Of a stretch of DNA of 64,000 bases, positions 12,920 through 28,273 are shown piece by piece. The notes below the pieces were generated by a model, which was not told where the DNA came from, did no database searches, and saw nothing but the letters and a program-made list of their open reading frames with translations. The position numbers and the translations under genes are program-made. The stretch is from contig NZ_CP035042.1 of the NCBI RefSeq assembly GCF_009834345.1, positions 4,030,001 through 4,094,000 on the forward strand, written 5' to 3'. Position 1 is the stretch's first letter. Every line of letters starts with the position of its first letter. The stretch comes from Billgrantia tianxiuensis (GTDB lineage: Bacteria; Pseudomonadota; Gammaproteobacteria; Pseudomonadales; Halomonadaceae).

Positions 12920-14068
12920 ATGCTAACCCTGCTGAAGAATGCCCAGCTATATGCCCCAACCTCCATGGGGTTGTGCCACCTGCTGCTTGCCGACCGCCGC
13001 ATTGCCGCCGTGGTATCGGCCGAGCGGGAAGCACCCGCGCTCGGCATGGCGGTTGACGAGATCGATCTGGAGGGGCGTCGGGTCATTCCTGGCCTGGTCG
13101 ATCCCCTGGTCCACTTCATCGGCGGCGGTGGCGAAGGCGGTTTCGGCACTCGCACCGCCGAGCTGACGCTCGATGATGCCCTGGCTTCCGGCGTCACCAC
13201 GCTGGTCGGCGCGCTGGGCACCGATGCCTTGACCCGCACCCCGGCCAACCTGCTGGGCAAGGCCCGCGAACTCGCCGCCGGCGGCCTGACCACCTACTGC
13301 TACACCGGCTCCTACCAGCTGCCGCCGGTCACCCTGACCGGCTCGGTGGGCAGCGACATCCTGTTCATCCCCGAGTTCATCGGCGTCGGCGAGGTGGCCA
13401 TCAGCGACCATCGCGGTTCACAGCCCTCGCCCTTCGAGCTGGCCCGCCTGGCGTCGGAAGCGCGTACCGCCGGCATGCTGGCAGGCAAGTCGGGGATCGT
13501 CTTCATACATACCGGCGACGCTCCCTCGCATCTGGAGCCGCTGCGCGCGGCGAGCCGCGACAGCGCCATTCCCCTCGCCCAGTTCCTGCCGACCCATATC
13601 AACCGCACCGCCGAGCTGTTCGAGGACGGCCTGCGCTTCGCCCGCGAGGGCGGCCGCATCGACTTCACCACCAGTACCACGGCGGAGCTTCTCGCCGGCG
13701 GTGAAGTCCCGGCCTCGGAAGCCGTGGCTCGCGCCCTGCATGCCCGCGTCGAGCCGTCGCGTATCACCCTCTCTTCCGATGCCAATGCCTCGCTGCCACG
13801 CTTCGACGCCGAGCGCCGCTTCGTCGGACTCGAACCCGGCCGATTGTCGAGCCCGTTCGAGGTGTTGGGCGAATGTATCGACGAACACGGCATCGCTTGG
13901 GAGACCGCGATCGGTGTCGCCAGCACCCACGCCGCCGACGCGCTCGGGCTCAGTACCAAGGGCCGACTGGCGCCAGGTCACGATGCCGACCTGCTGATAC
14001 TAGCCGAAGGTGAATGGTCCATCGATGAGGTGTGGGCATTGGGCCGGCGGGTGTATCGGCGCGATTGA
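12920..14068 (+). CDS. Isoaspartyl dipeptidase (IadA)-like amidohydrolase with altered metal ligands
   Basis: A 382-residue amidohydrolase of the beta-aspartyl-dipeptidase family (usual length about 390). The family's glycine-rich IGGGGE block follows the first metal motif, which here reads VDPLVH: Leu63 stands where the first His of the H-x-H pair is normally found, and only His65 remains. The carboxylated Lys position of E. coli IadA is Glu158 (GVGEVAISDHR). Other ligands appear present: His197 (FIHTGD), His226 (LPTHINR) and Asp in LSSDAN. Ordinary members cleave isoaspartyl dipeptides from damaged proteins; this copy may be altered or inactive. The start at 12920 has GAGGAG nine bases before it. 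Its place behind the amino-acid transporter suggests use of imported or recycled dipeptides. Confidence 0.78.
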   Translation: MLTLLKNAQLYAPTSMGLCHLLLADRRIAAVVSAEREAPALGMAVDEIDLEGRRVIPGLVDPLVHFIGGGGEGGFGTRTAELTLDDALASGVTTLVGALGTDALTRTPANLLGKARELAAGGLTTYCYTGSYQLPPVTLTGSVGSDILFIPEFIGVGEVAISDHRGSQPSPFELARLASEARTAGMLAGKSGIVFIHTGDAPSHLEPLRAASRDSAIPLAQFLPTHINRTAELFEDGLRFAREGGRIDFTTSTTAELLAGGEVPASEAVARALHARVEPSRITLSSDANASLPRFDAERRFVGLEPGRLSSPFEVLGECIDEHGIAWETAIGVASTHAADALGLSTKGRLAPGHDADLLILAEGEWSIDEVWALGRRVYRRD

Positions 14069-14084: not shown

Positions 14085-14543
14085 TCAACGGCCGCCGTGC
14101 GGCCCAGGAACGTGGCTGGGCTCGCCGGTTTCGGAGGGCAGCTGATGCGATGCCGGCTGGGCCAGCTCCTGAAGAATACCGCAGTGGCTGGAGTCCGTTT
14201 CGCCATTGCAACGCGAACGCAGGATGGCCAGTGCCTCGCGCAGCGCCTGGAGCTGCTCGATGCGCGCCTCGACGTGGGCCAAGTGATCGTCGATCAAGCC
14301 GTTGACCGCGTTGCACGGCTGGCGCGGGTGGTCGTGATAGTCGAGCAGGGTGCGAATCTCGTCGAGTGTCATGTCCAGCGTGCGGCAGTGGCGGATGAAG
14401 CTCAGCCGCTCGGCGTGGGGCTCGGCGTAGAGCCGGTAGTTGCCGCTCGAGCGTGCAGGCTCGGGCAACAATCCCTCGCGCTCGTAGTAGCGAATGGTCT
14501 CTACCGGGCAACCGGTGCGGCTGGAAAGCTCGCCGATTTTCAT
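14085..14543 (-). CDS. cadR: Cd(II)/Pb(II)-responsive MerR-family regulator, CadR type
   Basis: A 152-residue MerR regulator. The N-terminal winged helix reads IGELSSRTGCPVETIRYYE, then NYRLY. The metal-sensing pattern of CadR/PbrR is visible: Cys in RHCRTLDM, Cys in HPRQPCNAVN before the long dimer helix, and Cys in SRCNGETDSSHCGIL at its end. It is divergent from cadA across 104 bases containing a MerR-type promoter and would activate cadA on binding Cd, Pb or Zn. The ATG at 14543 starts the conserved MKIGEL sequence. The C-terminal tail holds several His residues that can add metal binding. Confidence 0.9.
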   Translation of the reverse strand: MKIGELSSRTGCPVETIRYYEREGLLPEPARSSGNYRLYAEPHAERLSFIRHCRTLDMTLDEIRTLLDYHDHPRQPCNAVNGLIDDHLAHVEARIEQLQALREALAILRSRCNGETDSSHCGILQELAQPASHQLPSETGEPSHVPGPHGGR

Positions 14544-14588
14544 GTGAGGCCTCGCATGTACTTTGGAAAACGCAAATGTCCAGCAGCT

Positions 14589-14618
14589 TGACTCTGTAGT
14601 TGCTACAGGGTGTGTCAT
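14589..14618 (+). promoter_or_regulatory. MerR-type promoter/operator of cadA
   Basis: A -35 element TTGACT (14589-14594) and a poor -10 TGTCAT (14613-14618) are separated by 18 bases. The spacer is filled by the dyad ACTCTGTAG-TTG-CTACAGGGT (14592-14612). This overlap of a symmetrical operator with a long spacer is the hallmark of promoters twisted into action by MerR-family proteins, here CadR. Confidence 0.8.
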
Positions 14619-14647
14619 CAGCATATGCCATGACACGGAGTCCTACC

Positions 14648-16909
14648 ATGACCGAACGCACCTGCTGCTCGGGTTGCAGCGCCACTGCCGATACCCTTGC
14701 CCCACCGACACGGGACGAGCTCCCGCCCGGCACACGTTCGCTGCGCTTGCATATCGAGGCGATGGACTGCCCTACCGAGGAAGCACTGCTGCGTCGGGCG
14801 CTGGGCGACATGCCGGGCATCGTACGGCTCGACTTCGACCTGATCGGCCGGGTGCTCACCGTGCGCCATCATGACGTGGAGGAAGAAGCCGTTCTGCGTC
14901 GTGTCGCCGCCACCGGGATGACGGCGAAGCGCCACGACCCGGCCCAGCGCATGCCTGCCACGAGCCGGGAAGAGGCCTGGTGGAAACTGGGCGTGGCCGC
15001 AGTGTTGGCCCTGGCCGCCGAAGCCAGCCACTGGCTGGGATTGGCCGAGCCCTGGCTCGCTGCCGCTCTGGCGCTTACCGCCATCGCCCTGGTCGGCCTG
15101 CCGACCTGGAAGAAGGGCTTCATCGCCCTGCGCCACCGTACGCTCAACATCAATGCATTGATGAGCGTGGCGGTGACCGGCGCCCTGCTGATCGGCCAGT
15201 GGGCCGAGGCGGCGATGGTGCTGGTACTGTTCACCCTGGCCGAGTGCATCGAGGCGCGTTCGCTGGGCCGGGCGCGTAACGCCATTCGCGAGCTGCTCTC
15301 GCTGGCCCCCGAGAGCGCCAGCGTGCGCCAGGCCAACGGCGACTTTCAACGCATGCCCGCCAGCGAGGTCGCGGTCGAAAGCCTGGTGAGGGTACGTCCG
15401 GGCGAGCGCCTGGCACTGGATGGAAGCGTAATGGAAGGCCACCCGTCGCTGGACGAGTCGCCCATCACCGGCGAGAGCCTGCCGGTAGACAAGGCACCGG
15501 GCGATGCCGTGTACGCCGGCAGCGTCAACCAGGGCAGCGAGTTTCTCTATCGCACCACCCGTGCGGCGAGCGATACCACCCTGGCCCGTATCATCCACAC
15601 CGTGGAGCAGGCCCAGGCCAGCCGTGCCCCAACCCAGCGCTTCATCGACCGCTTCGCCGCCGTCTACACACCGGCGGTATTCGCCATTGCCTTGCTGGTA
15701 GCGCTCAGCTGGCCATGGCTGTTCGGCATCGGCTGGCTCGAAGGCACCTACCGTGCCCTGGTGCTGCTGGTGATCGCCTGCCCCTGCGCACTGGTAATCT
15801 CCACTCCGGTGACCATCGTCAGCGGCTTGGCCGCTGCCGCGCGCACGGGCATCCTGGTCAAGGGAGGCAACGTACTCGAGCAGGGCTATCGCCTCAAGAC
15901 CCTGGCCTTCGACAAGACCGGCACCCTGACCCGGGGCCGCCCCACGCAGCGAATCTGGCACCCGCTCGATGCCACGCTGGACGAGCCCGCCCGCTCACGG
16001 CTGCGTGGCTTGGCTGCGGGACTCGCCGGGCGTTCGTCACATCCGGTGTCGGCGGCCCTGGCCCGCGCTGCCGAGGCGGACGGCATCCGCCCGCTGGAGG
16101 TGTACGACGTACGCGAGCTTCCCGGTCGTGGCGTGGTCGCTCGGCAGGGCGAATGCCAGGTCTGGCTCGGCAATCGCCGGTTGATGCAGCAGTTCGCAAC
16201 GACGGACGAGGCGCTCGACGACCACCTGGCCGAGCACGAGGCACGCGGCGAGACACTGGTGATCCTGGGCGAGGAGAGCCGGCCTCTGGCGCTGTTCGCC
16301 GTCGGCGACCCGCTGCGCGCGGAGAGCCGCGAGGCCATCGAGGCGCTGCATCGGCTGGGCGTGACCACGCTGATGCTGAGCGGCGACAACCCGGCGAGCG
16401 TGGCCGCGATGGCCGCCCAGGCCGGCATCGACGAGGCTCATGGCTCGCTGCTGCCGGAAGACAAGCTGGCGATGATCGAGGCGCGTGCTCAGCAAGGCCC
16501 CGTGGGCATGGTCGGGGACGGCGTCAACGATGCCCCGGCACTGGCGCGAGCCGATATCGGCTTCGCCATGGGGGCGCTCGGCAGTGATGCGGCCATCGAG
16601 ACCGCCGATGTGGCCTTGATGGACGACGACCCACGTCGGCTCGCCGACTTCCTGCATCTGTCTCGCTATACGCGCACGGTGCTGATGCAGAACATCCTCC
16701 TGGCGCTGGGCCTAAAGGCGGTATTCATGGCGCTCGCCTTCAGCGGCCACGCCACCCTGTGGATGGCGGTATTCGCCGACATGGGCGCCAGCCTGATCGT
16801 GGTGGCCAACGGACTGCGCCTGCTACGCCATGGCAGGCGGCCAGGCGTTGAAAGGCCGCAGCGTGATCTCGGGCATGATGAAGCCTTCGAGGAGAACACG
16901 GTGCAATAA
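14648..16909 (+). CDS. cadA: Heavy-metal translocating P-type ATPase (Cd/Pb/Zn efflux), CadA/ZntA type
   Basis: A 753-residue P1B ATPase. Order: Cys-rich N-terminus (TCCSGC), one heavy-metal-associated domain with the motif MDCPTEE typical of CadA/PbrA (about residues 37-100), membrane spans, actuator loop with SPITGESLPVDK, the CPC transport motif (IACPCALV) of Cd/Pb/Zn pumps, the phosphorylation site DKTGTLTRG, and hinge GDGVNDAPAL. It exports divalent soft metals from the cytoplasm. The ATG at 14648 is chosen because GGAG lies seven bases ahead and it yields the usual N-terminus. Regulated by the divergent cadR. A flavoprotein gene follows by eight bases and may be cotranscribed by chance. 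Confidence 0.93.
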   Translation: MTERTCCSGCSATADTLAPPTRDELPPGTRSLRLHIEAMDCPTEEALLRRALGDMPGIVRLDFDLIGRVLTVRHHDVEEEAVLRRVAATGMTAKRHDPAQRMPATSREEAWWKLGVAAVLALAAEASHWLGLAEPWLAAALALTAIALVGLPTWKKGFIALRHRTLNINALMSVAVTGALLIGQWAEAAMVLVLFTLAECIEARSLGRARNAIRELLSLAPESASVRQANGDFQRMPASEVAVESLVRVRPGERLALDGSVMEGHPSLDESPITGESLPVDKAPGDAVYAGSVNQGSEFLYRTTRAASDTTLARIIHTVEQAQASRAPTQRFIDRFAAVYTPAVFAIALLVALSWPWLFGIGWLEGTYRALVLLVIACPCALVISTPVTIVSGLAAAARTGILVKGGNVLEQGYRLKTLAFDKTGTLTRGRPTQRIWHPLDATLDEPARSRLRGLAAGLAGRSSHPVSAALARAAEADGIRPLEVYDVRELPGRGVVARQGECQVWLGNRRLMQQFATTDEALDDHLAEHEARGETLVILGEESRPLALFAVGDPLRAESREAIEALHRLGVTTLMLSGDNPASVAAMAAQAGIDEAHGSLLPEDKLAMIEARAQQGPVGMVGDGVNDAPALARADIGFAMGALGSDAAIETADVALMDDDPRRLADFLHLSRYTRTVLMQNILLALGLKAVFMALAFSGHATLWMAVFADMGASLIVVANGLRLLRHGRRPGVERPQRDLGHDEAFEENTVQ

Positions 16910-16917
16910 GGACTGTC

Positions 16918-18168
16918 ATGAGGGAGTCATCGGAGCACACCGAGATCATGGTCATCGGCGCCGGTATCGTCGGCCTGGCCTGCGCCTGGCACCTGCAGCG
17001 GCAAGGCTTCGAGGTCACCCTGGTCGATCCCGAGCCGCCCGGCGCCGCGGCCTCCTCCGGCAACGCTGGACTCCTGGCCAACTTCGCCATCGAGCCCCTG
17101 GCCCAACCCGCCATCTGGCGGCAGGCCCCGGGGCTTGTACTGTCGCCGCACTCCCCCTTTCACCTGCGCTGGCGCCATCTGCCCGGGCTCGCCCCGTGGC
17201 TGTGGCGCTTCATGCAGCGCGCCAACCGCCGCAGTGCCGCCCAGGCCACTCAGATCCTGAGCGAGCTGTTAACGCCTTCGGTGAATGACTGGCTGACTAT
17301 CTTCGACGATCTGGAGGACAACGGCACCCTTCTGCAGCAGCGCGGCAGCCTGTGCTTCTATCTCAGCGCCAAGGGCTGGCGCAAGGCTCAGGCCGAGCTC
17401 TCCGAGCGCGAGCGCTTCGGCGTCAACCAGCAACGCCTCGACGCCAAGGCACTGGCGGAGCTGGAACCGGCCCTCGAAGGCCTGGCCCGAGGCGGCATCC
17501 TGTTTCCCGACGCCTGCCACGTCAGCGACCCGCTGACCCTGGCCCAGCGCTTGGCCGAACGCCTGCAAAGCCGCGGCGTTCATCTGGTACGCGCCAAGGC
17601 ACTGGGGCTCGCGTCGCACGGCGGCCGTATCGACATCGATACCGATCGAGGCCCCTGGCAGGCCGAAAAGGTGGTGATCGCCGCGGGCACCTGGTCGCGA
17701 CCGCTGGCACTGGCCTGCGGCGACCGCATACCGCTGATCTCCGAACGTGGCTATCATCTGGAGTTTCCCACTGCCAGGGGGCTGGTCAGCCGACCCTGCA
17801 GTCCCGGGGAGTACGCCTTCTATCTCACGCCGATGCAGGGCCGCCTGCGCATCGCTGGCACCGTGGAGCTGGGTCACAATGACGACCCGATCAATTCCCG
17901 GCGGCTCGACTACATTCGCCGTCACGCCGAGAGCCTGTTCGGCCCGCTCGGCGAGCCGAGCCACACCTGGCTGGGCCTGCGCCCCTCGCTGCCCGACTCG
18001 CTTCCGGTGATCGGCCCCGCCACCGCCCTACCCGGCGTCAGCTACGCCTTCGGCCATGGCCACCTAGGCCTGACCCTGGCGGCCACCACCGGAAGGCTGC
18101 TGGCGGCCAGCATCAAGGGCGAAGCACCCGCCTGGTTGGCCGCCTGCGGCGCCGGCCGTTTTCGCTAA
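16918..18168 (+). CDS. FAD-dependent D-amino-acid dehydrogenase/amine oxidase (DadA-like)
   Basis: A 416-residue DAO-family flavoprotein. The dinucleotide-binding motif VIGAGIVGLACAWHL is at residues 12-26, followed by the acidic ribose residue in VDPE and the family block SSGNAGLL. The C-terminal FAD-contact segment ends YAFGHGHLGLTLA. Relatives oxidise D-amino acids, sarcosine or gamma-glutamylputrescine and pass electrons to the quinone pool. It follows cadA by eight bases on the same strand and converges on the amidotransferase gene of the amine-type cluster (72-base gap). A link with that cluster would suit a PuuB-like step, but orientation speaks neither for nor against it. Confidence 0.8.
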   Translation: MRESSEHTEIMVIGAGIVGLACAWHLQRQGFEVTLVDPEPPGAAASSGNAGLLANFAIEPLAQPAIWRQAPGLVLSPHSPFHLRWRHLPGLAPWLWRFMQRANRRSAAQATQILSELLTPSVNDWLTIFDDLEDNGTLLQQRGSLCFYLSAKGWRKAQAELSERERFGVNQQRLDAKALAELEPALEGLARGGILFPDACHVSDPLTLAQRLAERLQSRGVHLVRAKALGLASHGGRIDIDTDRGPWQAEKVVIAAGTWSRPLALACGDRIPLISERGYHLEFPTARGLVSRPCSPGEYAFYLTPMQGRLRIAGTVELGHNDDPINSRRLDYIRRHAESLFGPLGEPSHTWLGLRPSLPDSLPVIGPATALPGVSYAFGHGHLGLTLAATTGRLLAASIKGEAPAWLAACGAGRFR

Positions 18169-18240: not shown

Positions 18241-18905
18241 TCAAGGTATCCCCACCGGGGCGCTCAGGGACTCCTCTCCCTCGCGCACCCGCTCGTCGCC
18301 GACCAATTCGCGGCGCAGTGCCATCAGGTCGCGGGAGTAGGCCTTGGTGAATTCAGGGTGGCCCTGCACGCCGAGGAAGTGCTCGCCGACCTGCATCAAA
18401 TAGTTGGGGCAGAAGTCGCTGCCGCCCACGATGGTAGCCTCGGGGGAAGGATCTCGACCTGATCCTGGTGGCTGACCAGCAGGTCGATGCCCGGCTGCCA
18501 GGGTTCCATCCACGCCGCCCGCGCCGTGACGCGGTTGAACGACATGCCCACGCCCCAACCCCGCTCGCTCTTGACCACCTCGCCGCCCAGCGCCTTGGCC
18601 ATCAGCTGATGGCCGAAGCAGATGCCCACCAGCGGCTTGCCGGCCCGCCACAGCTCGCGCACGAAGTCGCACAGCTCGTCGACCCAGGGCAGCCCATCGT
18701 TGACGCCGTATTTCGAGCCGGTGGTCATCCAGGCGTCGACGGCATCGATGTCGTCGGGAATCTCGCCATCCAGGCAGCGCCACACCTGGAACTCCAGCGT
18801 AGGCTCGACCTGTCGGAACAGGGCGGCGAACATCTCGGGGTAGTTGCCGTGGGCCTCGCGCAGTTCCGGCGCCACGTCATCGCACTGCAGTAGTCCGATG
18901 CGCAT
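18241..18905 (-). pseudogene. Class I glutamine amidotransferase / gamma-glutamyl hydrolase-like protein, frameshifted
   Basis: A GATase1 protein. Residues 1-155 open MRIGLLQCDD and hold the nucleophile elbow GICFGHQL; the frame then breaks in GGGGG (18442-18446, C-run on the coding strand). One extra C joins VEILPP to EATIVGG and yields a 221-residue product with the catalytic His-Glu in GVQGHPEF. The start at 18905 has AAGGAG eight bases upstream. Such stand-alone GATases beside a gamma-glutamyl ligase often hydrolyse the gamma-glutamyl amide (PuuD-like role), although this one resembles the GMP-synthase-like branch. It is the last gene of the TRAP/ligase/dehydrogenase cluster, 72 bases after the alcohol dehydrogenase gene. 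The break is probably a sequencing error. Confidence 0.82.
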
Positions 18906-18977
18906 CGGTGAATCTCCTTTCATTGAGCCATCCCTGTCGTCTCAGCCTGCTACAACAGCCTCGTCGGGCAAATACGA

Positions 18978-20159
18978 TCAGATCCGACCTTCCACGGCAG
19001 CCACGAAGATACCGCGGTACTCGTCGGCGTCGAAGGCGACCGGGTTGGTGCCCGACGACGGATCCGCCACCGCCATGCGCCCGACCTTGTCGGCCTGGCG
19101 CGTATCGATACCGAGTTCGGCCAGGCTGTGCGGAATGCCGAGCCGCTCGCGCAGGCCGAGCACCCATTCGATCACCGCCGCCGTACCCGGCTGGTCCAGG
19201 TTGAGATAGCGTCCCAGGCGCACCATCGGTTCGCCGATGGCGCGCTCGTTGGCACGCAGCACGTAGGGCATCAGCACCGCGTTCAAGGTTCCATGGTGAG
19301 CGTCGTAGAGCGCCCCGAGAGGATGCGCCAAGGCGTGCATGGCGCCCAGGCCGCGCTGGAAGGCGGTGGCCCCCATGCTCGATGCCACCAGCATGTTCAT
19401 GCGCGCCTCGAGGTCACTGCCGTCGCTGTAGGCGCGCTGCAGGTAGAGGTCGATGCGGCGCATGCCCTCCACCGCGATGCCCTCGGCCATGGGGTGGTAG
19501 AGCGGCGAGCACCACGCCTCCATGCAGTGCGACAACGCATCCATGCCGGTGGCGGCGGTAACCGCCGGCGGCAGCCCTACGGTGAGCTCGGGGTCGAGGA
19601 TCACCGTCGCCGGCACCATGCCGGGGTGGAAGATGATGCGCTTGACGTGCTCCGCCTCGTCGGTGATCACCGAGGCGCGTCCCACCTCGGAGCCGGTGCC
19701 GGCGGTGGTGGGCACAGCGACGATGGGGGCGATGGCCCGGGCGTCGGCGTTCTTCCAGTTGTCGCCGACATCCTCCAGCGACCACAGCGACAGCCCCTCG
19801 CGCTGGTTGGCCATCAGCGCCACCGCCTTGGCGGCATCCAGCCCCGAGCCGCCGCCGAAGGCGATCACGCCGTCGTGACTGCCGCTGCGGAAGGCAGCGA
19901 TACCATCCAGCACATTACGTCCGGTGGGGTTGCCCTTGACCTGGCTGAATACGGCGGTGCGCAGGCCGGCATCCTGGCACGCCTGCACACAGGCCTGCAC
20001 CATCGGCAGCGCCGCCAGACCGGGATCGGTGACCAGCAGCGGCGCGCCCATGCCCAGCGCCTTGCAGGCGTCGGGCAGGTCACGAATCCGCCCCGCCCCG
20101 GTGAGGATGTTCGAGGGGTAGTTCCAGCCCATGGTGTAGTGGTTGATGTCGTGGCTCAT
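18978..20159 (-). CDS. Iron-containing (group III) alcohol dehydrogenase
   Basis: A 393-residue Fe-ADH. NAD-binding GGGSGLDAAKA (about 98-108), the TTAGTGSEV segment and the metal site are visible: Asp and His in TGMDALSHCMEA, then His residues in GAMHALAHPLGALYDAHHG. It oxidises a primary alcohol to an aldehyde with NAD. The aldehyde dehydrogenase gene lies 19 bases upstream on the same strand, so alcohol to aldehyde to acid is the expected pair of steps. Within the cluster the substrate may be a gamma-glutamylated amino alcohol rather than a free alcohol. Length and motifs are normal. Confidence 0.9.
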   Translation of the reverse strand: MSHDINHYTMGWNYPSNILTGAGRIRDLPDACKALGMGAPLLVTDPGLAALPMVQACVQACQDAGLRTAVFSQVKGNPTGRNVLDGIAAFRSGSHDGVIAFGGGSGLDAAKAVALMANQREGLSLWSLEDVGDNWKNADARAIAPIVAVPTTAGTGSEVGRASVITDEAEHVKRIIFHPGMVPATVILDPELTVGLPPAVTAATGMDALSHCMEAWCSPLYHPMAEGIAVEGMRRIDLYLQRAYSDGSDLEARMNMLVASSMGATAFQRGLGAMHALAHPLGALYDAHHGTLNAVLMPYVLRANERAIGEPMVRLGRYLNLDQPGTAAVIEWVLGLRERLGIPHSLAELGIDTRQADKVGRMAVADPSSGTNPVAFDADEYRGIFVAAVEGRI

Positions 20160-20178
20160 TGCGTTCTCCTGGGCCGGC

Positions 20179-21564
20179 TTAGGCGTGTTTGAGGTGGAAC
20201 GACTTGGGTCGGGTCAGCGTCTCGTAGCCGACGCGGGACAGCGAACAGCCGCGCCCCGACTGCTTGACGCCGGTCCAGGCCAGCTCCGGGTCGAGGTAGT
20301 CGCAGCGGTTGGTGAACACGGTGCCGGCTTCCAGTCGCCGGGCGATGGCCTCGCCCGTGGCGATATCGCGGGTGAACACGGCGGCAGTGAGACCGAAGTC
20401 GCTGTCGTTCATCAGCCGCACGGCCTCGTCGTCGTCCGCCACCGGCATGATGCCGACCACCGGGCCGAAGCTCTCCTCGTTCATCACCCGCATCGAATGA
20501 TCGACCTCGGTCAGCACCTGTGGCGCCAGGTAGGCGCTGCCCGGCCGCGAGAGCGGATACTCGCCGGGGTCGATCCAGGCCCTGGCGCCGACGGCGACCG
20601 CCTCCTCGATCTGGCCGCGCACGAAGTCCGCCGCCGCCGGGCGCACCAGCGGCCCCAGGGTGGTCGCGGGGTCGGTGGGGTTGCCGAGCTTGAGCTGGCG
20701 CACCCAGGCCACCGCGCGCTCGACGAAGTCGTCGAAGATCGAGGCATGCACGTAGATGCGCTCGATGCCGCAGCAGCTCTGGCCCGAGTTGAAGAAGGCG
20801 CCGTCCATCACCCCGGGCACTGCCTCGTCGAGGTTCACGTCGGCGCGGATGTAGGCCGGGTCCTTGCCGCCCAGCTCCAGGCCGGTGGCGATGAAGCGCC
20901 CGGCGGCGTTGCGCTCGACCATCGCCCCACCCGCTACCGAGCCGGTGAAGGAGACGTGGGCGATGCGGACATCGCGAATCACGCTTTCCGCGTCGTCATG
21001 GGCGAGGTGCAGGTGCTGGAACACGCCCTCCGGCAGCCCCGCCTCGTCGAAGGCCTGCTGGAAGCGCTCGGCGCACAGCGGGGTCTGGGCCGAATGCTTG
21101 AGGATCACTGCATTGCCGGCCATGATCGCCGGCACCACGGCGTTCACCGCGGTCATGAAGGGGAAATTCCAGGGCGCGACGATGAACGACACCCCCAGCG
21201 GCTCGCGGGTGATGTAGCGGGTGAAGCCCGGCTTGTCGGCCAGGCGGATCGGCGCCAGGGCCTCCTCGGCCATGGCGATCATGGTCCGTGCGCGATCCTC
21301 GAAGCCACCGATCTCGCCGCCGGCCACGGCGATCGGCCGGCCCATCTGCCAGGTCAATTCGCGCGCCAGCTCGTCGCGCCGGGCGACGAAGGCATCGACC
21401 ATCCTCGAACACAGCCGCGCCCGTTCGGCCAGGCTCGTCTCGCGCCACTTACGCTGCGCCGCCACCGCGCTTTCCAGCGCCGCCTCGACCCGCGCTGGGT
21501 CGGCCAGCTCCCGCTCGACGTAGACCGAACCGTCGACCGGAGAAATCGTCTTCTGTATGGCCAC
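20179..21564 (-). CDS. NAD(P)-dependent aldehyde dehydrogenase
   Basis: A 461-residue ALDH. Cofactor segment APWNFPFMTA, the catalytic Glu in LELGGKDPAY, the nucleophile Cys in FFNSGQSCCGIERIY and the C-terminal EESFGPV block are all present. The double Cys after GQS is common in succinate-semialdehyde-like and glycolaldehyde-type members. It should oxidise the aldehyde made by the adjacent alcohol dehydrogenase. A GGAGAA ribosome site precedes the ATG at 21564. Between it and the ligase gene upstream lies a 164-base gap filled by a long imperfect palindrome. Confidence 0.9.
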   Translation of the reverse strand: MAIQKTISPVDGSVYVERELADPARVEAALESAVAAQRKWRETSLAERARLCSRMVDAFVARRDELARELTWQMGRPIAVAGGEIGGFEDRARTMIAMAEEALAPIRLADKPGFTRYITREPLGVSFIVAPWNFPFMTAVNAVVPAIMAGNAVILKHSAQTPLCAERFQQAFDEAGLPEGVFQHLHLAHDDAESVIRDVRIAHVSFTGSVAGGAMVERNAAGRFIATGLELGGKDPAYIRADVNLDEAVPGVMDGAFFNSGQSCCGIERIYVHASIFDDFVERAVAWVRQLKLGNPTDPATTLGPLVRPAAADFVRGQIEEAVAVGARAWIDPGEYPLSRPGSAYLAPQVLTEVDHSMRVMNEESFGPVVGIMPVADDDEAVRLMNDSDFGLTAAVFTRDIATGEAIARRLEAGTVFTNRCDYLDPELAWTGVKQSGRGCSLSRVGYETLTRPKSFHLKHA

Positions 21565-21623
21565 TTGGCGTTCTCCTGCTAATTCATTGCCTCAAGTACA
21601 AGGTGAGCGCTGAGCGAGCGGTT

Positions 21624-21708
21624 CGCAGGCAAGGCGGAGCGAAAAGGAGCGAGCGGAGTTGACTGTAGTCAATGAGCATCGCGAGTTTTCGCTCCAACAC
21701 AGCCTGCG
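21624..21708. repeat. REP-like long imperfect palindrome
   Basis: An 85-base hairpin-forming element between the ligase and aldehyde dehydrogenase genes. Outer arms CGCAGGC / GCCTGCG (21624-21630 and 21702-21708), middle arms GGAGCGAAAA / TTTTCGCTCC, and inner arms TTGACT / AGTCAA around GT. Intergenic palindromes of this type are repeated in many gammaproteobacterial genomes; no second copy is seen in this window. It could stabilise or separate parts of the operon transcript. Confidence 0.6.
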
Positions 21709-21728
21709 GATCGCGCAGCCAGTGCGGA

Positions 21729-23108
21729 TCAAATAATCTCGAAGTAGCGATCGAGCTCCCAGTCAGTAATATGACGCCTGAACTGGCGTTCTTCCCACTC
21801 CCGCGTGGCCGCGAAGTGCTCGACGAAGGCGTCGCCGAACAGGCTGCGCGCCGCGTCGGAGGCTTTCAACCGCTGGGCGGCTTCCCACAGCGTGCGCGAG
21901 AGCGCCTGATGCTCAGGGTGGGCCAGCTCGTAGGAGTTGCCGGTTACCATTTCGTCGGGCTCGAGCTGGTGTTCGATACCGTAGAGGCCCGAGCCGATCG
22001 CCGCGGCCAGCGCCAGGTAGGGGTTGGCGTCGGCGCTGCCCAGGCGGTACTCGACCCGCTGCGACTTGGCGCTGCCGGGAATCACCCGCAGCGCGGTGGT
22101 GCGGTTCTCCACTCCCCAGGTGGCGTCGGTGGGCGCCCAGAAGCCGGGAATCAGGCGGGTGTAGCTGTTCACCGTGGGGGCGAACATGGCCAGAAATTCC
22201 GGCATCAGCTTCTGCTGGCCGGCGACGAAGTGGCGCTGGATGTCGCTCATGCCATGGGGCTGGTCGGCATCGAAGAAGGCCGATTCACCGCTGTCGGTGC
22301 GATTCAACGAGAGGTGGATGTGGCCGCTCTGGCCGGGGTAGTCCGGCGACCACTTGGCCATGAAGGTGGCCATCAGTCCGCGACGCTGCGCCCACACCTT
22401 GGTAAAGGTCTTGAACAACGCGCCCTTGTCGCCGGCGGCCAGCGCCTCGTCGACACGGATCGCCGCTTCCAGCACGCCGGGGCCAGTCTCGGTGTGCAGC
22501 CCCTCGATGGGGAAGTCCATCGCCTCGGCCATGCCCAGTAGCTCATGATAGAGTTCGCCATGCACCGAGCTTCGCAGCATCGAGTAGCCCATCATGTCCG
22601 GCGTGAAGGGCTTGAGATTGCGAAAACCCTTCTCGCGTACCGACTCGGGCGTTTCCTGGAACAGGAAGAACTCGTACTCCAGCGCCCCGCAGGCGGTAAA
22701 GCCCATGGCCTCGGCCTTGGCCAGCACGCGGCGCAGCAGCCCGCGCGGGCAGATCTCCCCGGCCGGGCCAGTGAACTCGGCCAGGAACAACAACATGTCG
22801 CCCTCGCAGGGCAGCTCGCGGCAGCTCTCGGGAATCACCCGCAGGGCGGCGTCCGGGTAGCCGGTGTGCCAGCCGGTGTACGTCACGTTGTCGTAGAGCT
22901 CGTCCTTGCTGTCCCAGCCCAGCACCACGTCGCAGAAGGCGAAGCCTTCGCTCAGCGCGTGAAAGAACTTGTCGCGGCGCATGTACTTGCCGACCATCAC
23001 GCCATCGATGTCAAACATGCCGACCTTGACGTGGCTCAGCCCGCGCTGTTCGACGATCCGCCGGGCATCGTCGGCATTTCTTACGTCTCTTGCCTGGAGT
23101 CGGCTCAT
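21729..23108 (-). CDS. Glutamine synthetase-fold gamma-glutamyl ligase (PuuA/IpuC/GlnA4-like)
   Basis: A 459-residue member of the glutamine synthetase family but not housekeeping GlnA: no PII/adenylylation-type C-terminal tail and a divergent N-terminus (VKVGMFDIDGVMVGKY). ATP/metal motifs are present: EYEFFLF, GHIHLSLN, the SYTRLIPGFWAP segment and VEYRLGSADANPYLALAA. Such proteins join glutamate to an amine (putrescine, isopropylamine, ethanolamine) with ATP. The start at 23108 has GAGGAAG eight bases upstream. Context with a TRAP transporter, Fe-ADH, ALDH and an amidotransferase argues for an amino-alcohol substrate such as ethanolamine; a diamine would normally come with an aminotransferase or oxidase instead of an alcohol dehydrogenase. 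Confidence 0.85.
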   Translation of the reverse strand: MSRLQARDVRNADDARRIVEQRGLSHVKVGMFDIDGVMVGKYMRRDKFFHALSEGFAFCDVVLGWDSKDELYDNVTYTGWHTGYPDAALRVIPESCRELPCEGDMLLFLAEFTGPAGEICPRGLLRRVLAKAEAMGFTACGALEYEFFLFQETPESVREKGFRNLKPFTPDMMGYSMLRSSVHGELYHELLGMAEAMDFPIEGLHTETGPGVLEAAIRVDEALAAGDKGALFKTFTKVWAQRRGLMATFMAKWSPDYPGQSGHIHLSLNRTDSGESAFFDADQPHGMSDIQRHFVAGQQKLMPEFLAMFAPTVNSYTRLIPGFWAPTDATWGVENRTTALRVIPGSAKSQRVEYRLGSADANPYLALAAAIGSGLYGIEHQLEPDEMVTGNSYELAHPEHQALSRTLWEAAQRLKASDAARSLFGDAFVEHFAATREWEERQFRRHITDWELDRYFEII

Positions 23109-23221
23109 TGCTGCTTCCTCGTCCACCCTTCGTTGTCATTGTTCTTCAAAACAGTTCTTCGAAACCGCTCGATGAAAGCCGGCGGGAGTACCGAGCCGGG
23201 CCCGGCACTCCCGTCCTTCCC

Positions 23222-24277
23222 TCAGCCATAACGGTAGGGAGGTCCCGCCTGTTGCATGGTCTGGCGATAGTCCTTGAGAATCTGCACCACTCGCGCGCTA
23301 CGCTCGCTCTCCTGGGCGATCTCGTCCCAGAAGGCCAGCGCCTCGTCCTCCAGCCGCTGCCACTCCGATTCGGGAATCGAGGTCAGCTCCAGCTTGCCGC
23401 CGGTGGTGCGGTAGTGGGCCTCGCCCCACCAGTACCAGTGCTGGCGATAGTAGTGGGAGCTGTCCATGCACAGCTTGAACAGCACCTGCAGGTGCTCGGG
23501 CACTTCGTTCCAGCGCTCGGTATTGGCGAAGTAAGAGCCGGCCCAGGCGCCGGAGATGTTGTTGGTCAGGTAGTAGTTGCTGACATCGGCCCAGCCCACG
23601 GTGTAGGCCTCGGTGATGCCGGCCCAGGCGATGCCGTCGAGTTCGCGGGTCTGCATGGCGACCTCGATGTCCTCCCACGGCAGCGTCACCGGCACCACGC
23701 CGAAGCGGCTGAGGAAGCGCCCCGCGGTGGGGAAGGTGAAGACGCGCTTGCCCTGCAGATCGTCGAGGCTCCTGATCGGGTCGCGGGTGACGAAGTTGCA
23801 CGGGTCCCAGGCGCCCGAGCCGAGCCAGGTGACGCCGTCGATCTCACCGTAAGCCTCCTCCCAGATCTCCTTGAGCCCGTAGTGGTGGAACAGCGCGGGC
23901 ACGTCGAGGCTGTAGCGCGAGGCGAACGGGAAGTAGCCGCCGAACACCGAGACGTCCACGGGCGCGTTGATCGAGTCGTCGTCGCTCTGCACGGCATCGA
24001 TGGTGCCTCGCTGCATGGCGCGGAACAGCTCACCGGTGGGCACCAGTTGGTCGGCGTAGTAGAGCTCGATCTCCATCTCGCCGTTGGCGGCCTTGTTGAA
24101 GGCATCGATGGAGGGCTTGATCACGTGGGCGGCCAGCGCCGGCCCGGCGTAGGTCTGCAGGCGCCAGCGGATCGGTCGGCGCTGGGCATGCACGTAGGGC
24201 GCCGCGAGGGTCGTGGCCCCCACGGTGGCGGCGGTGGCCAGGCCCGCCTTCTTGAGAAAGTCGCGACGATTGGTCAT
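23222..24277 (-). CDS. TRAP transporter substrate-binding protein (DctP family)
   Basis: A 351-residue periplasmic binding protein exported by the Tat route (NRRDFLKKAG at residues 3-12, cleavage near VHA). The mature part has the DctP fold with ELYYADQLVPTGELFRAMQRG and the conserved PFASRYSLD and AWAGITEAY segments. The C-terminal third is very rich in aromatic residues (SSHYYRQHWYWWGEAHY), a feature of the group that includes lactate/2-oxoacid binding proteins; an aromatic cage could also hold a cationic amine. It captures the substrate for the two membrane subunits encoded upstream. The start at 24277 begins the twin-arginine sequence and has a GGAGAAG site. Confidence 0.9.
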   Translation of the reverse strand: MTNRRDFLKKAGLATAATVGATTLAAPYVHAQRRPIRWRLQTYAGPALAAHVIKPSIDAFNKAANGEMEIELYYADQLVPTGELFRAMQRGTIDAVQSDDDSINAPVDVSVFGGYFPFASRYSLDVPALFHHYGLKEIWEEAYGEIDGVTWLGSGAWDPCNFVTRDPIRSLDDLQGKRVFTFPTAGRFLSRFGVVPVTLPWEDIEVAMQTRELDGIAWAGITEAYTVGWADVSNYYLTNNISGAWAGSYFANTERWNEVPEHLQVLFKLCMDSSHYYRQHWYWWGEAHYRTTGGKLELTSIPESEWQRLEDEALAFWDEIAQESERSARVVQILKDYRQTMQQAGPPYRYG

Positions 24278-24356
24278 TTCTCTTCTCCTGCTGTTTTTGC
24301 TTGTTGTGGGAAGAAACGCGGTGCTCTTTCGTCGTGCCGGGTTCACCTCCTGGGTG

Positions 24357-25679
24357 TCAGTAGCCGCGATAGAGCTGCGGCAGCCACAGCGCCAGTTGCG
24401 GGAAGATCGTGATCAGCGCCAACCCGATCAGCATGATGCCGACGAAGGGCCAGACACTGCGGTAGATGTCGCCCAGCGACACCTCCGGCGGCGCCATGGC
24501 GCGCATCAGGAACAGGTTGTAGCCGAACGGCGGAGTCATGTAGGCGATCTGCACAGTGATGGTGTAGAGCACGCCATACCAGATCGGGTCGAAGCCGAGA
24601 CTGATCACCAACGGCACGTAGAGCGGCGCGACGATCACCAGCATGGCAGTGTCGTCGAGGAACATGCCGAGCAGGATGTAGGAGAGCTGCATCATCACGA
24701 GTATTTGCCATGGGCTCATGCCGATGCGGTCGAGGAACACGTTCTCGATGGCGCGCACCGCACCCAGGCCGTCGAACACCGCGCCGAAACAGAGGGCGGC
24801 GAGGATGATCCACATGAACATGCAGCTGATGCCAAGCGTCTTGTGCACGGTGCTCTCGATCACCTTCCAGGTCAGGCGCCGCTTGATCAGCGCGGCCAGG
24901 GTGGCGGCCACGGCGCCGACCGCCGAACTCTCCACCAGGCTGGTCACGCCCATCAGGAACAGCCCGGTCATGAAGAAGAAGATCATCAGCGGCAACAGGC
25001 CGGCGCGCAGCAGCTTGAGCTTCTCGGCCAGACTCATCTGGCGCTCCTCGGCGGGCAGCGCCGGCCCCAGATGCGGCTGCAGGCGGCAGCGGATGACGAT
25101 GTAAATCACGAACAGCCCGGCAAGGATCAGCCCCGGGATGGCTCCCGCCAGCCACAGCTGGCTGACCGGCTGGCGCGCGATCATGCCGTAGAGCACCAGC
25201 ACCACGCTGGGCGGCACCAGGATGCCCAGTGAGCTGCCCGCCTGGATCACGCCGGTGACCATGATCTTGTCGTAGCCGCGGCGCAACAGTTCCGGCAGGG
25301 CGATGGTCGCGCCGATGGCCATGCCCGCCACGCTCAGCCCGTTCATCGCCGAGACCACCACCATCAGGCCGATGGTGCCCACCGCCAGGCCGCCCCTGAG
25401 CGAGCCCATCCAGACGTGGAACATCTCGTAGAGTTCGCTGGCGATGCCCGACTCGGAGAGCATGTAGCCCATGTAGATGAACAGTGGCAGGGTCAGCAGC
25501 GGGTACCAGTTCATCAGTTGGATGGCGGCGCTGAACGGCATCTCCACCCCACCCTGCCCCCACAGCAGCAGCGCCGAGGCGGCGCCGACGAAGCCGATCA
25601 CGCCGAACACCCGCTGCCCGGTGAGCAGCAGCAGCATCATGGCCGAGAACATCAGCAGGGCGATCATCTCGTAGCTCAT
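24357..25679 (-). CDS. TRAP transporter large permease (DctM family)
   Basis: A 440-residue membrane protein with about 12 hydrophobic segments. Family blocks include LPLFIYMGYMLSESGIA, GIATIALPELLRRGYD-like GATIALPELL, GILVPPSVVLVLYG and the terminal MTPPFGYNLFLMR. It is the sodium-driven transport subunit of the TRAP system. The start at 25679 overlaps the stop of the small permease gene by four bases (ATGA), the usual coupling; the long open frame continues further upstream but only as a shadow of the DctQ gene. Confidence 0.92.
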   Translation of the reverse strand: MSYEMIALLMFSAMMLLLLTGQRVFGVIGFVGAASALLLWGQGGVEMPFSAAIQLMNWYPLLTLPLFIYMGYMLSESGIASELYEMFHVWMGSLRGGLAVGTIGLMVVVSAMNGLSVAGMAIGATIALPELLRRGYDKIMVTGVIQAGSSLGILVPPSVVLVLYGMIARQPVSQLWLAGAIPGLILAGLFVIYIVIRCRLQPHLGPALPAEERQMSLAEKLKLLRAGLLPLMIFFFMTGLFLMGVTSLVESSAVGAVAATLAALIKRRLTWKVIESTVHKTLGISCMFMWIILAALCFGAVFDGLGAVRAIENVFLDRIGMSPWQILVMMQLSYILLGMFLDDTAMLVIVAPLYVPLVISLGFDPIWYGVLYTITVQIAYMTPPFGYNLFLMRAMAPPEVSLGDIYRSVWPFVGIMLIGLALITIFPQLALWLPQLYRGY

Positions 25680-26224
25680 TCGCCCGCCCCCCGCTCCACG
25701 GAGGCATCCGCCCGGTCCAGGGAGACGCCGCGCGCCCGGGCAATGTCCTTGAACAGGGTCGACACGCTCTGCAGCAGCATGAGGAACACGCCGAAGGTCA
25801 TGACGATCTTGATCGGCGCCAGCCGCGGTGCCCAGGAGGTGTAGCTCTTCTCGCCGTAGCGCAGCGCGTACTCGGTGCTGGAGATACCGCCAGCCAGCAG
25901 CGCGCCGAGGAAGACGATCAGCAGCAGGATGGTAAGGGCATCGACCCAGGCGCGGGTGCGGTCGGACCAGCGCGAGTAGAACAGGTCCATGCGCACATGG
26001 GCGCCCATCTGCATGGCGTAGGCACCGCCCAGCAGGTAGTAGGCGGCCAACATGAACTGCGAGACCTCGATGCTCCAGATCAGAGGAGCGTTGAAGGCGG
26101 TACGCGACACCGAGGCATAGAGCAGCACGCCGATCATGACGAAGATCATGAACATGACGATGCGCCCCACCACCCGGTTGAATGCATCCACCCAGCGAAC
26201 GTAGAGCGTTATTATTCTTGGCAT
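25676..26224 (-). CDS. TRAP transporter small permease (DctQ family)
   Basis: A 182-residue protein with four membrane spans. The N-terminus VRWVDAFNRVVGRIVMFM leads into the first span; QFMLAAYYLLGGAYAMQMGAHVRMDLFY is the characteristic family block. It completes the TRAP transporter with DctM (four-base overlap) and DctP. First gene of the presumed catabolic operon; the 195-base gap back to the LysR stop at 26420 should hold the operon promoter, in which nothing sharper than an AT-rich patch at about 26205-26300 was seen. Confidence 0.9.
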   Translation of the reverse strand: MPRIITLYVRWVDAFNRVVGRIVMFMIFVMIGVLLYASVSRTAFNAPLIWSIEVSQFMLAAYYLLGGAYAMQMGAHVRMDLFYSRWSDRTRAWVDALTILLLIVFLGALLAGGISSTEYALRYGEKSYTSWAPRLAPIKIVMTFGVFLMLLQSVSTLFKDIARARGVSLDRADASVERGAGE

Positions 26225-26419
26225 CGTTCGGCCGACCTTGAGGGTTGCCTTGAGTTTCGTTCAAGTCTTTGGACGAAATCGTGCGGTGCGCAACGAGCAT
26301 CGGTTATAGCGACGCCCGGGGTATCGATGAAATCGATAGTGCCTCGCGACAGGGCGCACACACCCCACCGCGCCCCCCATCGGGGCACGGCAGCACTCAG
26401 GAAGGGAACAGGGGAACGC

Positions 26420-27379
26420 TCACCCTTGGGTCACGACTTCAGCAAAGAGCCAGGGCAGCTCCCGCTCCAACTGGGTGCGGAAACGCTGCTCCAGCAGCCG
26501 GCGGCCATCGCGGGCCAGCAGTGCAGGCAATTCCCCCAGCTCATCGCGCCGGGCCACCAGCGTCAGTTCCCGTACCAGCGGCGCCAGCGGCAGTGGCGCA
26601 ACCGTGACCTGAAGCGCGTCGAGGCCGGCCTGGTAGAGGCACAGCGGCGTGGTGATGGTCCAGCCCGCACCGGCGCTGACCAGGCGCAGCACGGCAAAGG
26701 TATTGTCGAGATGCAGCCGGGCCGGCAGTTCGAGCTGGTTGAGGCGCAGGTGGCGCTCGATGGCCTGGCCGATCAGCGACTGCGGCGTATAGCGCACGAA
26801 ATCCAGATGTCGCGCCAGCCAGCGCAGGTTGTCCAGCGGGCCGTCCCAGGAGAGCGGCACCACCAGCACGAAGGGCTCGCGCAGCAGGGCATGACGCTCC
26901 AGGCCGTCGTAGTTCTCGAGCCGGTCATCGGAAATGATGATATCCACGTGACGGGTCAGCAGGGAGTGGCCATGCATGTGCGACAGCCCCGTGGTCAGGG
27001 TATAGTCGCGGGTGTAGCGTCGGATCAGTTCGATCAGCGGCTGCCCCACCGCCGTTGCCAGCGAGTCGACCAGCGCCAGGCGCACCTGGTGGAGCTGGCC
27101 GAAGCCGCCGCTGACCAGCTCGCGGCGGGTGCTGCGCGCGTCGTCGAGCAGGCGCCGGGCGCGGTCGTAGAAGAAGCGTCCCGCGCTGGTCGGTTCGAGT
27201 GGACGGGAGTGGCGCTTGAACAGCGTCACGCCCATGCTCTCCTCCAGGTTGGCCAGGCTCTGCGACACCGAAGACTGTTTCAGCCCCAGCCGCCTGGCCG
27301 CCGCGCTCTGGCTGCCCTGTTCCAGGGTTTCGACGAAGATTTCCATGCTGCGAAGATCGAAACCGAAGCCGCTGCGCAT
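26420..27379 (-). CDS. LysR-family regulator upstream of the TRAP/ligase cluster
   Basis: A 319-residue LTTR: winged helix FVETLEQGSQSAAARRLGL, KQSSVSQSLANLE at residues 14-50, then an effector domain (about 100-300). It lies immediately upstream of the TRAP operon on the same strand with a 195-base gap and is the likely regulator of the cluster. LTTRs are more often divergent from their target, so control of the cluster is inference. It is divergent from the TraX-like gene on the other side (93 bases). Confidence 0.85.
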   Translation of the reverse strand: MRSGFGFDLRSMEIFVETLEQGSQSAAARRLGLKQSSVSQSLANLEESMGVTLFKRHSRPLEPTSAGRFFYDRARRLLDDARSTRRELVSGGFGQLHQVRLALVDSLATAVGQPLIELIRRYTRDYTLTTGLSHMHGHSLLTRHVDIIISDDRLENYDGLERHALLREPFVLVVPLSWDGPLDNLRWLARHLDFVRYTPQSLIGQAIERHLRLNQLELPARLHLDNTFAVLRLVSAGAGWTITTPLCLYQAGLDALQVTVAPLPLAPLVRELTLVARRDELGELPALLARDGRRLLEQRFRTQLERELPWLFAEVVTQG

Positions 27380-27472
27380 GCGCGTATCCTCGCTCTACTA
27401 TGCCGGGCGCTGGAACTCTCTTTGCAGCGCACCGGTCACAAACGTTGTCGTCATCACTACAGGGAGGTCCCG

Positions 27473-28273
27473 ATGACCGCACAGGCCGCCGCCCGGCCGC
27501 TGCCCGCTCGCCCCGTTTCCACCTGGACCGGCTGGGGCCAATGGCTGGCGCTCGCCACCATGACCATCGATCATCTAACCCGTTACGTGGCGCCCAGCGG
27601 CTGGGAACTCGGCTGGGCCGGTTCTTCGCTGGGCCGTATCGCCTTCCCCCTGTTCGCCGCCATGGTCGCCTGGCATGGCCTGTTCAATACGCGCAACCCG
27701 TTGCGCTACGCCCGACGCATCCTGATCATCGGCCTTGCCGCACAGCTCCCCTACATGCTGATGCCGCGGGCTTCCGATGCCTTCATTCTCAATGTCTGCT
27801 TTACCCTGGCGCTGGGTCTGGCCTGGGGCGCCTGGCTGCGCGAGCTGCTCGCCCGGCACCGCAGCGGCAGCCTGGGCAGTGCCTGGCTGGGGGCTGCGCT
27901 AGTCGCCACGCTGGCAGTCTGGTACCTGCTCGGCGAGTGGGTCGAATACGGCCATCGCGGGCTGCTGCTGGTGCCCTTGTTCATGCTTGCCATGCACCAC
28001 CTGCACGATGCGGGAGAGACGCTTGCCGAGCGTCTCGGCGCCGTGACCATGGCCGCTCCGCTGCTGATCGTGGCGGGGCTGATGAACAGCTCCGACATGG
28101 CCAAGTCGTTCACCGTTGCCACCTGCCTGGCGGTGCTGTGGCTGGCCGCCGGCGCCCATCGCCTGACACCCGGGGTGCCGGCCGCCATGCCCCGCCGGCT
28201 GTGGCTGGCGTGGTATCCCGGCCACTTCGCCCTAATCGCCCTGTGGCTATGGGCAAGCGGCGGGCTAGGCTGA
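27473..28273 (+). CDS. TraX-family membrane protein
   Basis: A 266-residue integral membrane protein. The TraX hallmark is near the N-terminus: LALATMTIDHLTRYV, then GRIAFPLFAAMVAWHG and NPLRYARRILIIGLAAQLPYM, followed by about seven more hydrophobic spans. In F plasmids TraX acetylates pilin, but chromosomal homologues occur without transfer genes and are thought to be acyl- or acetyltransferases; none of the conjugation genes is present here. The ATG at 27473 has GGGAGG seven bases before it. Three bases separate its stop from the convergent GGDEF-EAL gene. Confidence 0.85.
   Translation: MTAQAAARPLPARPVSTWTGWGQWLALATMTIDHLTRYVAPSGWELGWAGSSLGRIAFPLFAAMVAWHGLFNTRNPLRYARRILIIGLAAQLPYMLMPRASDAFILNVCFTLALGLAWGAWLRELLARHRSGSLGSAWLGAALVATLAVWYLLGEWVEYGHRGLLLVPLFMLAMHHLHDAGETLAERLGAVTMAAPLLIVAGLMNSSDMAKSFTVATCLAVLWLAAGAHRLTPGVPAAMPRRLWLAWYPGHFALIALWLWASGGLG

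Follow-up and report, generated by a model that had tools for sequence, protein, structure and literature searches.

The DNA examined here, referred to as the window, is a 64,000-nucleotide stretch of the halophile Billgrantia tianxiuensis (C1:4030001-4094000 of a one-contig, 5.0-Mb genome). Eight genes on its minus strand encode, in order, a LysR-family regulator (26420-27379; Pfam HTH_1 and LysR_substrate above cut-off), the DctQ, DctM and DctP components of a tripartite ATP-independent periplasmic (TRAP) transporter, a ligase of the glutamine synthetase (GS) fold (21729-23126; Pfam Gln-synt_C, 324 bits), an aldehyde dehydrogenase (ALDH; 20179-21564; Pfam Aldedh, 427 bits), an iron-containing alcohol dehydrogenase (Fe-ADH; 18978-20159; Pfam Fe-ADH and ADH_Fe_C) and a class-I amidotransferase (18241-18923). 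The small permease DctQ (25676-26224; Pfam DctQ, 86.7 bits) is EtoV-like, the large permease DctM (24357-25679; Pfam DctM, 227 bits) EtoW-like, and DctP (23222-24346, likely start near 24277), which carries a twin-arginine translocation signal, EtoX-like. A palindrome, CACTATCGATTTCATCGATACC (26320-26341, minus strand), precedes the DctQ start by some 95 bases; it contains T-N11-A and is a candidate LysR operator. Open reading frames (ORFs) and Pfam/NCBIfam profiles confirm the gene order and strand given in a preliminary description of this DNA. The ligase, both dehydrogenases and the glutamyl hydrolase are all adjacent, the hydrolase being frame-broken as sequenced.

Very probably, this cluster serves to take up ethanolamine and to break it down through gamma-glutamyl intermediates, and it represents a second version of such an operon, which we call type B. 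The observations behind this assignment are homology, gene order, a conserved pocket residue, the mutual exclusivity of two ligases across 275 genomes, an importer swap, and the co-occurrence of operator and regulator; from these we infer the enzyme activities, the order of steps, the inducer and the function of the operator. LysR, the proposed ethanolamine-responsive regulator, probably bound at the palindrome, would switch on the operon, and DctP-DctQ-DctM would import ethanolamine. The ligase (a proposed gamma-glutamylethanolamide synthetase) would use ATP to join glutamate to the amine of ethanolamine, giving gamma-glutamylethanolamide. Fe-ADH (as gamma-glutamylethanolamide dehydrogenase) and then ALDH (as gamma-glutamyl-aminoacetaldehyde dehydrogenase) would oxidise the alcohol to gamma-glutamylglycine, which the amidotransferase, as gamma-glutamylglycine hydrolase, would cleave to glutamate and glycine.

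The ligase is not GlnA, as the preliminary description had also held, since it scores far under the NCBIfam cut-offs for GlnA (TIGR00653, 214 versus 429 bits), type III GS (188 versus 470) and PuuA (NF045547, 180 versus 650). The window ligase has Trp330 in the column of the PGFEAP glutamate of this genome's GlnA, which we take to be the catalytic flap residue Glu327; two other ligases considered below (L168 and L059) have Phe in that column and a Puu-like paralogue has Tyr. Another locus of the genome encodes a GlnA-like protein.

A role in the breakdown of polyamines such as putrescine, by a route of the Puu/Pau type, is highly improbable for this cluster. Ligase relatives at 54-55% identity on Pseudorhizobium and Rhodobacteraceae plasmids do adjoin aminotransferases and polyamine ABC transporter genes, which would suit such a function. 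However, neither an aminotransferase nor an amine oxidase is found in the cluster, and the PuuA score is low. We set the polyamine reading aside because the genome has a Puu-like cluster at another locus, whose ligase is 30% identical to that of the window. This second cluster (L178 3907-9246) comprises a PuuD-like hydrolase, the ligase, an aminotransferase and an aldehyde dehydrogenase, all named by reading.

Ligases 54-60% identical to the window's occur in three further loci (L181, L182, L185). One, in Burkholderia vietnamiensis, is accompanied by a sodium/solute symporter and RpiR; the other two lie on alphaproteobacterial plasmids beside aminotransferase and polyamine ABC genes. Because the neighbouring genes vary in this way, the wider ligase subfamily probably serves several amines.

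The binding protein and the predicted substrate

DctP matches PDB entry 4uab with an E value of 4e-157 over 318 residues, and the next PDB match stands at 2e-12. Entries 4uab and 4xf5 share one sequence; beyond that identity, which we observed, we take 4xf5 to be Csal_0678 with a 2-aminopropanol. Published work reports that Csal_0678 binds ethanolamine (PDB 4uab), the ligand being held by Glu220 (PMC12410723), and that it lacks the arginine with which TRAP proteins bind carboxylates (PMC4646407, where ethanolamine binding is also cited). A positively charged ligand for a TRAP protein was noted as a surprise in PMC5812351.

A 100-residue stretch of 4uab recurs without a change in two genomes of the Halomonadaceae (L168 and L169), which we used as stand-ins for the Chromohalobacter salexigens type. 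The window DctP is 66% identical to the L168 protein, whose residue 220 is the Glu of a GITE motif and aligns with window E246. This position is Glu in all 105 DctPs compared (80 from named loci and 25 from the Halomonadaceae loci designated type A below). Window Phe203 aligns with an arginine of 4pet, which is presumably the carboxylate-binding one; here the 105 proteins have Phe (102) or Tyr (3) and never Arg. A carboxylate-type TRAP protein is unlikely because this arginine is missing throughout. The close match, the retained Glu220 and the absent arginine place DctP with the ethanolamine-binding EtoX/Csal_0678 proteins, as a predicted ethanolamine-binding protein. With regard to the neighbouring DctM, an 827-residue ORF in a related genome (G051) was considered as a DctM-DctP fusion and is read instead as a shadow frame of DctM.

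The classical route for the same substrate is the EutBC ethanolamine ammonia-lyase pathway; EutB was not found in the window's genome by a search whose E. coli control was positive. An ethanolamine permease of the TIGR00908 type was likewise not found in this genome at E 1e-40, in a search run without a positive control. Homology and context lend strong support to ethanolamine as the predicted substrate and to a route of gamma-glutamylation, alcohol and aldehyde oxidation and release of glutamate plus glycine, fed by TRAP import and using no cobalamin enzyme. Such a cobalamin-free route with a TRAP importer had been put forward in the preliminary description, and DctP homology, the pocket residue, gene context and the lack of EutB all speak strongly for it. 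The further claim that it would be new was wrong, as a TRAP-fed gamma-glutamyl route has been published (PMC10132767).

The published systems resemble the window to differing degrees. As described in that paper, Phaeobacter possesses EtoVWX together with a ligase, two dehydrogenases and an amidohydrolase, EtoX binds ethanolamine with a Kd of 7.9 uM, and the genes are called closely related to ones whose function has been demonstrated in C. salexigens and Agrobacterium (PMC10132767). Set against the window by description rather than by sequence, the EtoVWX-ETAGA-GAADDH-GETADH-GGAH operon of Phaeobacter sp. MED193 provides an equal set of functions; it differs in that RpiR and the GGAH gene come first, as in type A. 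Other papers call the C. salexigens pathway predicted in silico (PMC6529630) and its steps proposed (PMC9397018), and Csal0679, whose number follows that of Csal_0678, is listed as a putative GS (PMC5299690). The GlnA4 cluster of Streptomyces coelicolor, also compared by description, has the same first step, with a GS-like ethanolamine ligase, an ALDH, an amidohydrolase or amidotransferase and, in some species, a putative ethanolamine permease; its figure legend gives a short-chain dehydrogenase in contrast to the Fe-ADH of the window, and the portion of the text available does not mention TRAP genes (PMC6529630). Ethanolamine comes from a major membrane phospholipid, and the Phaeobacter study places etoX in about 5-10% of ocean bacteria (PMC10132767).

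A search for the same neighbourhood in other genomes, suggested in the preliminary description, found the genes kept together. Among 80 named loci with this DctP, DctQ is present in 78, DctM in 78 and both in 77; 54 have ALDH and Fe-ADH above the identity thresholds. A GS-fold ligase lies nearby in 62, being of the window type in 23 (67-98% identical) and only 29-36% identical in the other 39. LysR copies at least 60% identical accompany 18 of the 80 (a count of 20 would include two 36% matches).

Two versions of the predicted pathway in Halomonadaceae

The closest homologues of the window ligase and DctP come from Billgrantia and other Halomonadaceae, which is why the family genomes compared here are referred to as Halomonadaceae. 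We searched 275 Halomonadaceae genomes with the window-type (type-B) ligase, DctP and the L168-type (type-A) ligase, all at E 1e-100, and compared the tables by hand. The type-B ligase was found in 68 genomes, DctP in 70 and the type-A ligase in 26; the two ligases never occur together (0/275), the window's own genome lacking a type-A match at this threshold, and every one of the 70 DctP-bearing genomes has one or the other. DctPs fall into two sets. Those at least 87% identical to the window's (44 genomes) all have the type-B ligase no more than about 4 kb away on the same contig, and those at 65-70% (26 genomes) occur in exactly the 26 genomes with the type-A ligase.

In all 25 type-A loci fetched (of 26; G109 was left out), the ligase is 61-65% identical to that of Pseudovibrio (L059) and is accompanied by the ALDH and Fe-ADH of that type; RpiR is present in 23 and an amidohydrolase, distantly like N-formylglutamate deformylase, in 22. 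In L168 a divergent RpiR gene is followed by those for the amidohydrolase, DctQ, DctM, DctP, ligase, ALDH and Fe-ADH. The L168 ligase scores 1011 bits against PDB 5dm3, which we take to be Csal_0679, and is 32% identical to the window ligase. Vetting et al. (2015) reportedly described the ethanolamine gamma-glutamylation pathway of C. salexigens (Csal_0678 and others). With this pathway the window shares DctQMP with the same binding-protein family, a GS-fold ligase, ALDH, Fe-ADH and a hydrolase in one cluster; it differs from the C. salexigens type, as represented by L168 and L169, in having LysR rather than RpiR, a class-I amidotransferase rather than the amidohydrolase, and a ligase outside the 5dm3 clade. 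The oxidation enzymes resemble those beside type-A ligases: copies of ALDH (51-62% identical to the window's) adjoin such ligases in alphaproteobacteria, and copies of Fe-ADH (51-57%) also stand beside type-A ligases.

In a ligase tree of 51 rows (6 in no group), type A and type B form separate clades, each arising by one change, with support of 100/99. Locus, identity and tree comparisons together indicate that ligase, hydrolase and regulator differ between the types while the importer and oxidation enzymes are shared. Type B is a non-orthologous second version of the pathway, with its own proposed regulator-operator pair. A description of this version was not found in the open-licence literature, and the version looks new; its ligase, hydrolase and regulator differ from those of the published system. 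Type-B clusters, whose ligase is the commoner in the family (68 versus 26 of 275), would escape any search based on the published ligase or hydrolase alone; the type-B ligase, hydrolase and LysR box offer testable markers for them.

IpuC, annotated on plasmid pTC1 as gamma-glutamylisopropylamide synthetase, branches next to the type-B clade (97/86) on a long branch that leaves its place unsure. It is also the nearest named-amine ligase among the matches listed (30 of 55 plasmid records), at 38-39% identity, and its neighbouring genes differ from those of the window. These observations bear on an alternative in which ethanolamine is secondary and the cluster chiefly handles some other small amino alcohol (L-alaninol or 3-aminopropanol, for example) or an amine, such as isopropylamine, that is converted to one. 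We regard this as improbable. The importer in these loci is either a DctP with the ethanolamine pocket residue or a protein of the ethanolamine permease family (three of the four scored exceed the cut-off; see below), and the P450 and ferredoxin genes that adjoin IpuC on pTC1 are absent from the cluster. Ethanolamine remains the substrate that we consider most likely.

Importer exchange and a candidate LysR operator

In 24 Halomonadaceae genomes the type-B ligase occurs in the absence of this DctP. ALDH and Fe-ADH are present in 23 of these loci (the 24th ends with its contig), the amidotransferase in 19 and LysR, at least 60% identical, in 14. Directly upstream of the ligase, 20 of the 24 have a permease ORF, recognised by shared motifs. 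Three of these permeases were scored against the ethanolamine permease model TIGR00908 (cut-off 382 bits): two lie above it (L129, 550; L147, 536) and L142, at 371, falls just under. A Photobacterium plasmid carries, in order, LysR, a permease (553 bits on the same model), ligase, ALDH, Fe-ADH and amidotransferase, and a Legionella lytica plasmid carries the four enzyme genes with no LysR, permease or TRAP genes beside them.

In a midpoint-rooted tree of 48 DctP proteins, those of type A form a single group (100/100), and those of type B fall, together with 11 proteins from other bacteria (mostly alphaproteobacteria), in a group of 27 (100/98). This topology fits a lateral gain of the TRAP genes in the type-B line, though the tree gives no direction.

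The candidate operator lends itself to a similar comparison. The palindrome is recognisable between LysR and DctQ in 12 of 12 aligned relatives (from the 23 named type-B loci). Allowing up to 3 mismatches, it has one match in the window, where 0.01 would be expected, and an 18-base version has only one perfect match in the whole genome. A strict palindrome pattern recovered 8 of the 23 loci that combine the type-B ligase with TRAP genes and, where this DctP is absent, 2 of 24; the window itself was missed. The pattern was replaced by a weight matrix built from 13 sites (the window and the 12 relatives), and the site calls given here depend on that matrix. In shuffled 19.5-kb pieces, the 99% point of the matrix score was 16.8.

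Among ten held-out type-B TRAP loci, all six with LysR have a site (22.7-36.1), including three in which LysR has moved behind DctP; those without a site are L089, L110 and L113, which have no LysR, and L041, for which upstream DNA is lacking (L049 lay outside the scan). In the 24 loci without this DctP, a site is present in 14/14 with LysR (26.7-38.8) and in 0/10 without it (maximum 14.3). Over both sets, the loci without LysR have no site (0/13), and the scanned Halomonadaceae loci with LysR have one in 33 of 33 cases, 13 of them by construction (the window and the training loci). Type-A loci have none (0/25, none above 15.7). In the LysR-bearing loci of the family, the site precedes whichever importer is present, TRAP or permease. 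From this co-occurrence, LysR probably binds the palindrome at 26320-26341.

On balance, we favour the view that bacteria have assembled gamma-glutamyl ethanolamine catabolism at least twice, with different ligase, hydrolase and regulator families and shared oxidation enzymes, and that the type-B LysR and its operator stayed in place while the importer switched between an APC permease and a TRAP transporter whose DctP is nearer to proteins from outside the family (mostly alphaproteobacterial) than to those of type-A Halomonadaceae. Two unrelated importers exchanged under one regulator would make a clean natural experiment on operon evolution.

Several observations weigh against reading the cluster as a type-B ethanolamine operon. 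The amidotransferase of the window is frame-broken. In the tree, the type-B ligase sides with the isopropylamide ligase IpuC and not with the C. salexigens ligase (with the reservation about the long branch), so the substrate may be alaninol or a different small amino alcohol; the activity of the type-B ligase is proposed from homology, and no assay of such a ligase was found in the open-licence literature. No permease ORF precedes the ligase in four of the 24 loci that lack this DctP. The Photobacterium plasmid has a LysR (53% identical) and no box (12.9), and the Legionella locus (L180) has a box-like match of 20.7, above the shuffled value, and no LysR. Finally, at 18 of the 80 named DctP loci the ligase, ALDH and Fe-ADH are all missing from the neighbourhood, indicating that the importer also serves other settings. 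These enzyme-less loci include L057, L058, L065, L072, L080, L087, L109 and 11 others; in the 17 examined (L103 was left out), reading of the genes identified an RpiR-like gene in six and an amidohydrolase-like gene in three.

The frame-broken amidotransferase and neighbouring genes

The preliminary description had named a class-I amidotransferase as the last gene. Family and position are borne out, but the gene is not one open frame, a split that the description missed. The Cys motif belongs to an N-terminal part in ORF 18396-18923, the GHPEF motif to a C-terminal part in ORF 18241-18783. Both match consecutive parts of NF004212; the frame changes near 18444 and a second time near 18255. The last enzyme is broken as sequenced.

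Nearly all relatives compared have this gene in one frame. The halves are in a single frame in all 21 named relatives that have both, with a stop-free stretch in 18; the other three (L036, L037 and L048) have one stop, within the first five aligned residues and before the likely start. Intact ORFs of 234-245 residues are found in L036, L038 and L124. Among further family loci with both halves, 18 of 19 have them in one frame. The exception is L141, where the halves (13192-13832) are likewise in different frames.

Given these comparisons, the operon could be decaying or dead in this strain, such that ethanolamine would be taken up and gamma-glutamylglycine left uncleaved by the cluster's own hydrolase. 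One-base indels give this some support: an excess of them in good flanks was looked for across the genome and not found (37 and 26 against two relatives, versus 27 between those relatives), and a generally error-rich assembly is thus not shown. We nevertheless consider decay unlikely. The seven other cluster genes have uninterrupted frames and share 96-99% identity with their L038 counterparts. A second GS-fold gene of the same genome (L127, C1:3256172-3257163) is also frame-split, as is a window gene on the minus strand (57951-59203), and genome completeness is 95.2, compared with 99-100 for most listed relatives with a match. These three observations favour assembly error as the cause of the frame break. 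One caveat here is that, since there is no genome-wide indel excess, the assembly-error explanation rests on few gene-level cases.

The split in the window gene at 57951-59203 falls near 58,988-59,018 when compared with the relative G110, to which its pieces are 100% and 95.5% identical; the relative G051 is without the gene. It emerged from a three-way comparison with queries from the relatives, which gave 10 split entries in the window versus 4 between two relatives. Several of these entries reflect sequence divergence, shadow ORFs or a single place counted on both strands, and we relied on just two of them, the amidotransferase and the gene near 59,000. The split ligase gene of L127 adjoins genes read as a polyamine-type ABC transporter and FAD oxidases.

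Converging on the cluster is a gene on the plus strand (16918-18168) for a DadA/ThiO-like FAD amino-acid dehydrogenase, whose orthologue occupies this position in 4 of the 80 named DctP loci, each from Billgrantia. A functional tie to the cluster is conceivable because glycine is the predicted pathway product. Beyond it, 14085-16909 holds a divergent MerR-like regulator and a heavy-metal P-type ATPase-like protein, both named by reading of translations. On the other side, next to LysR, a plus-strand gene at about 27400-28273 has a start (STWTGWGQWLALATMTIDHLTRY) that we take to be TraX-like. Similar ORFs also occur upstream of the ligase in L132, L134, L137, L140 and L144, where the window-type DctP and LysR are absent.

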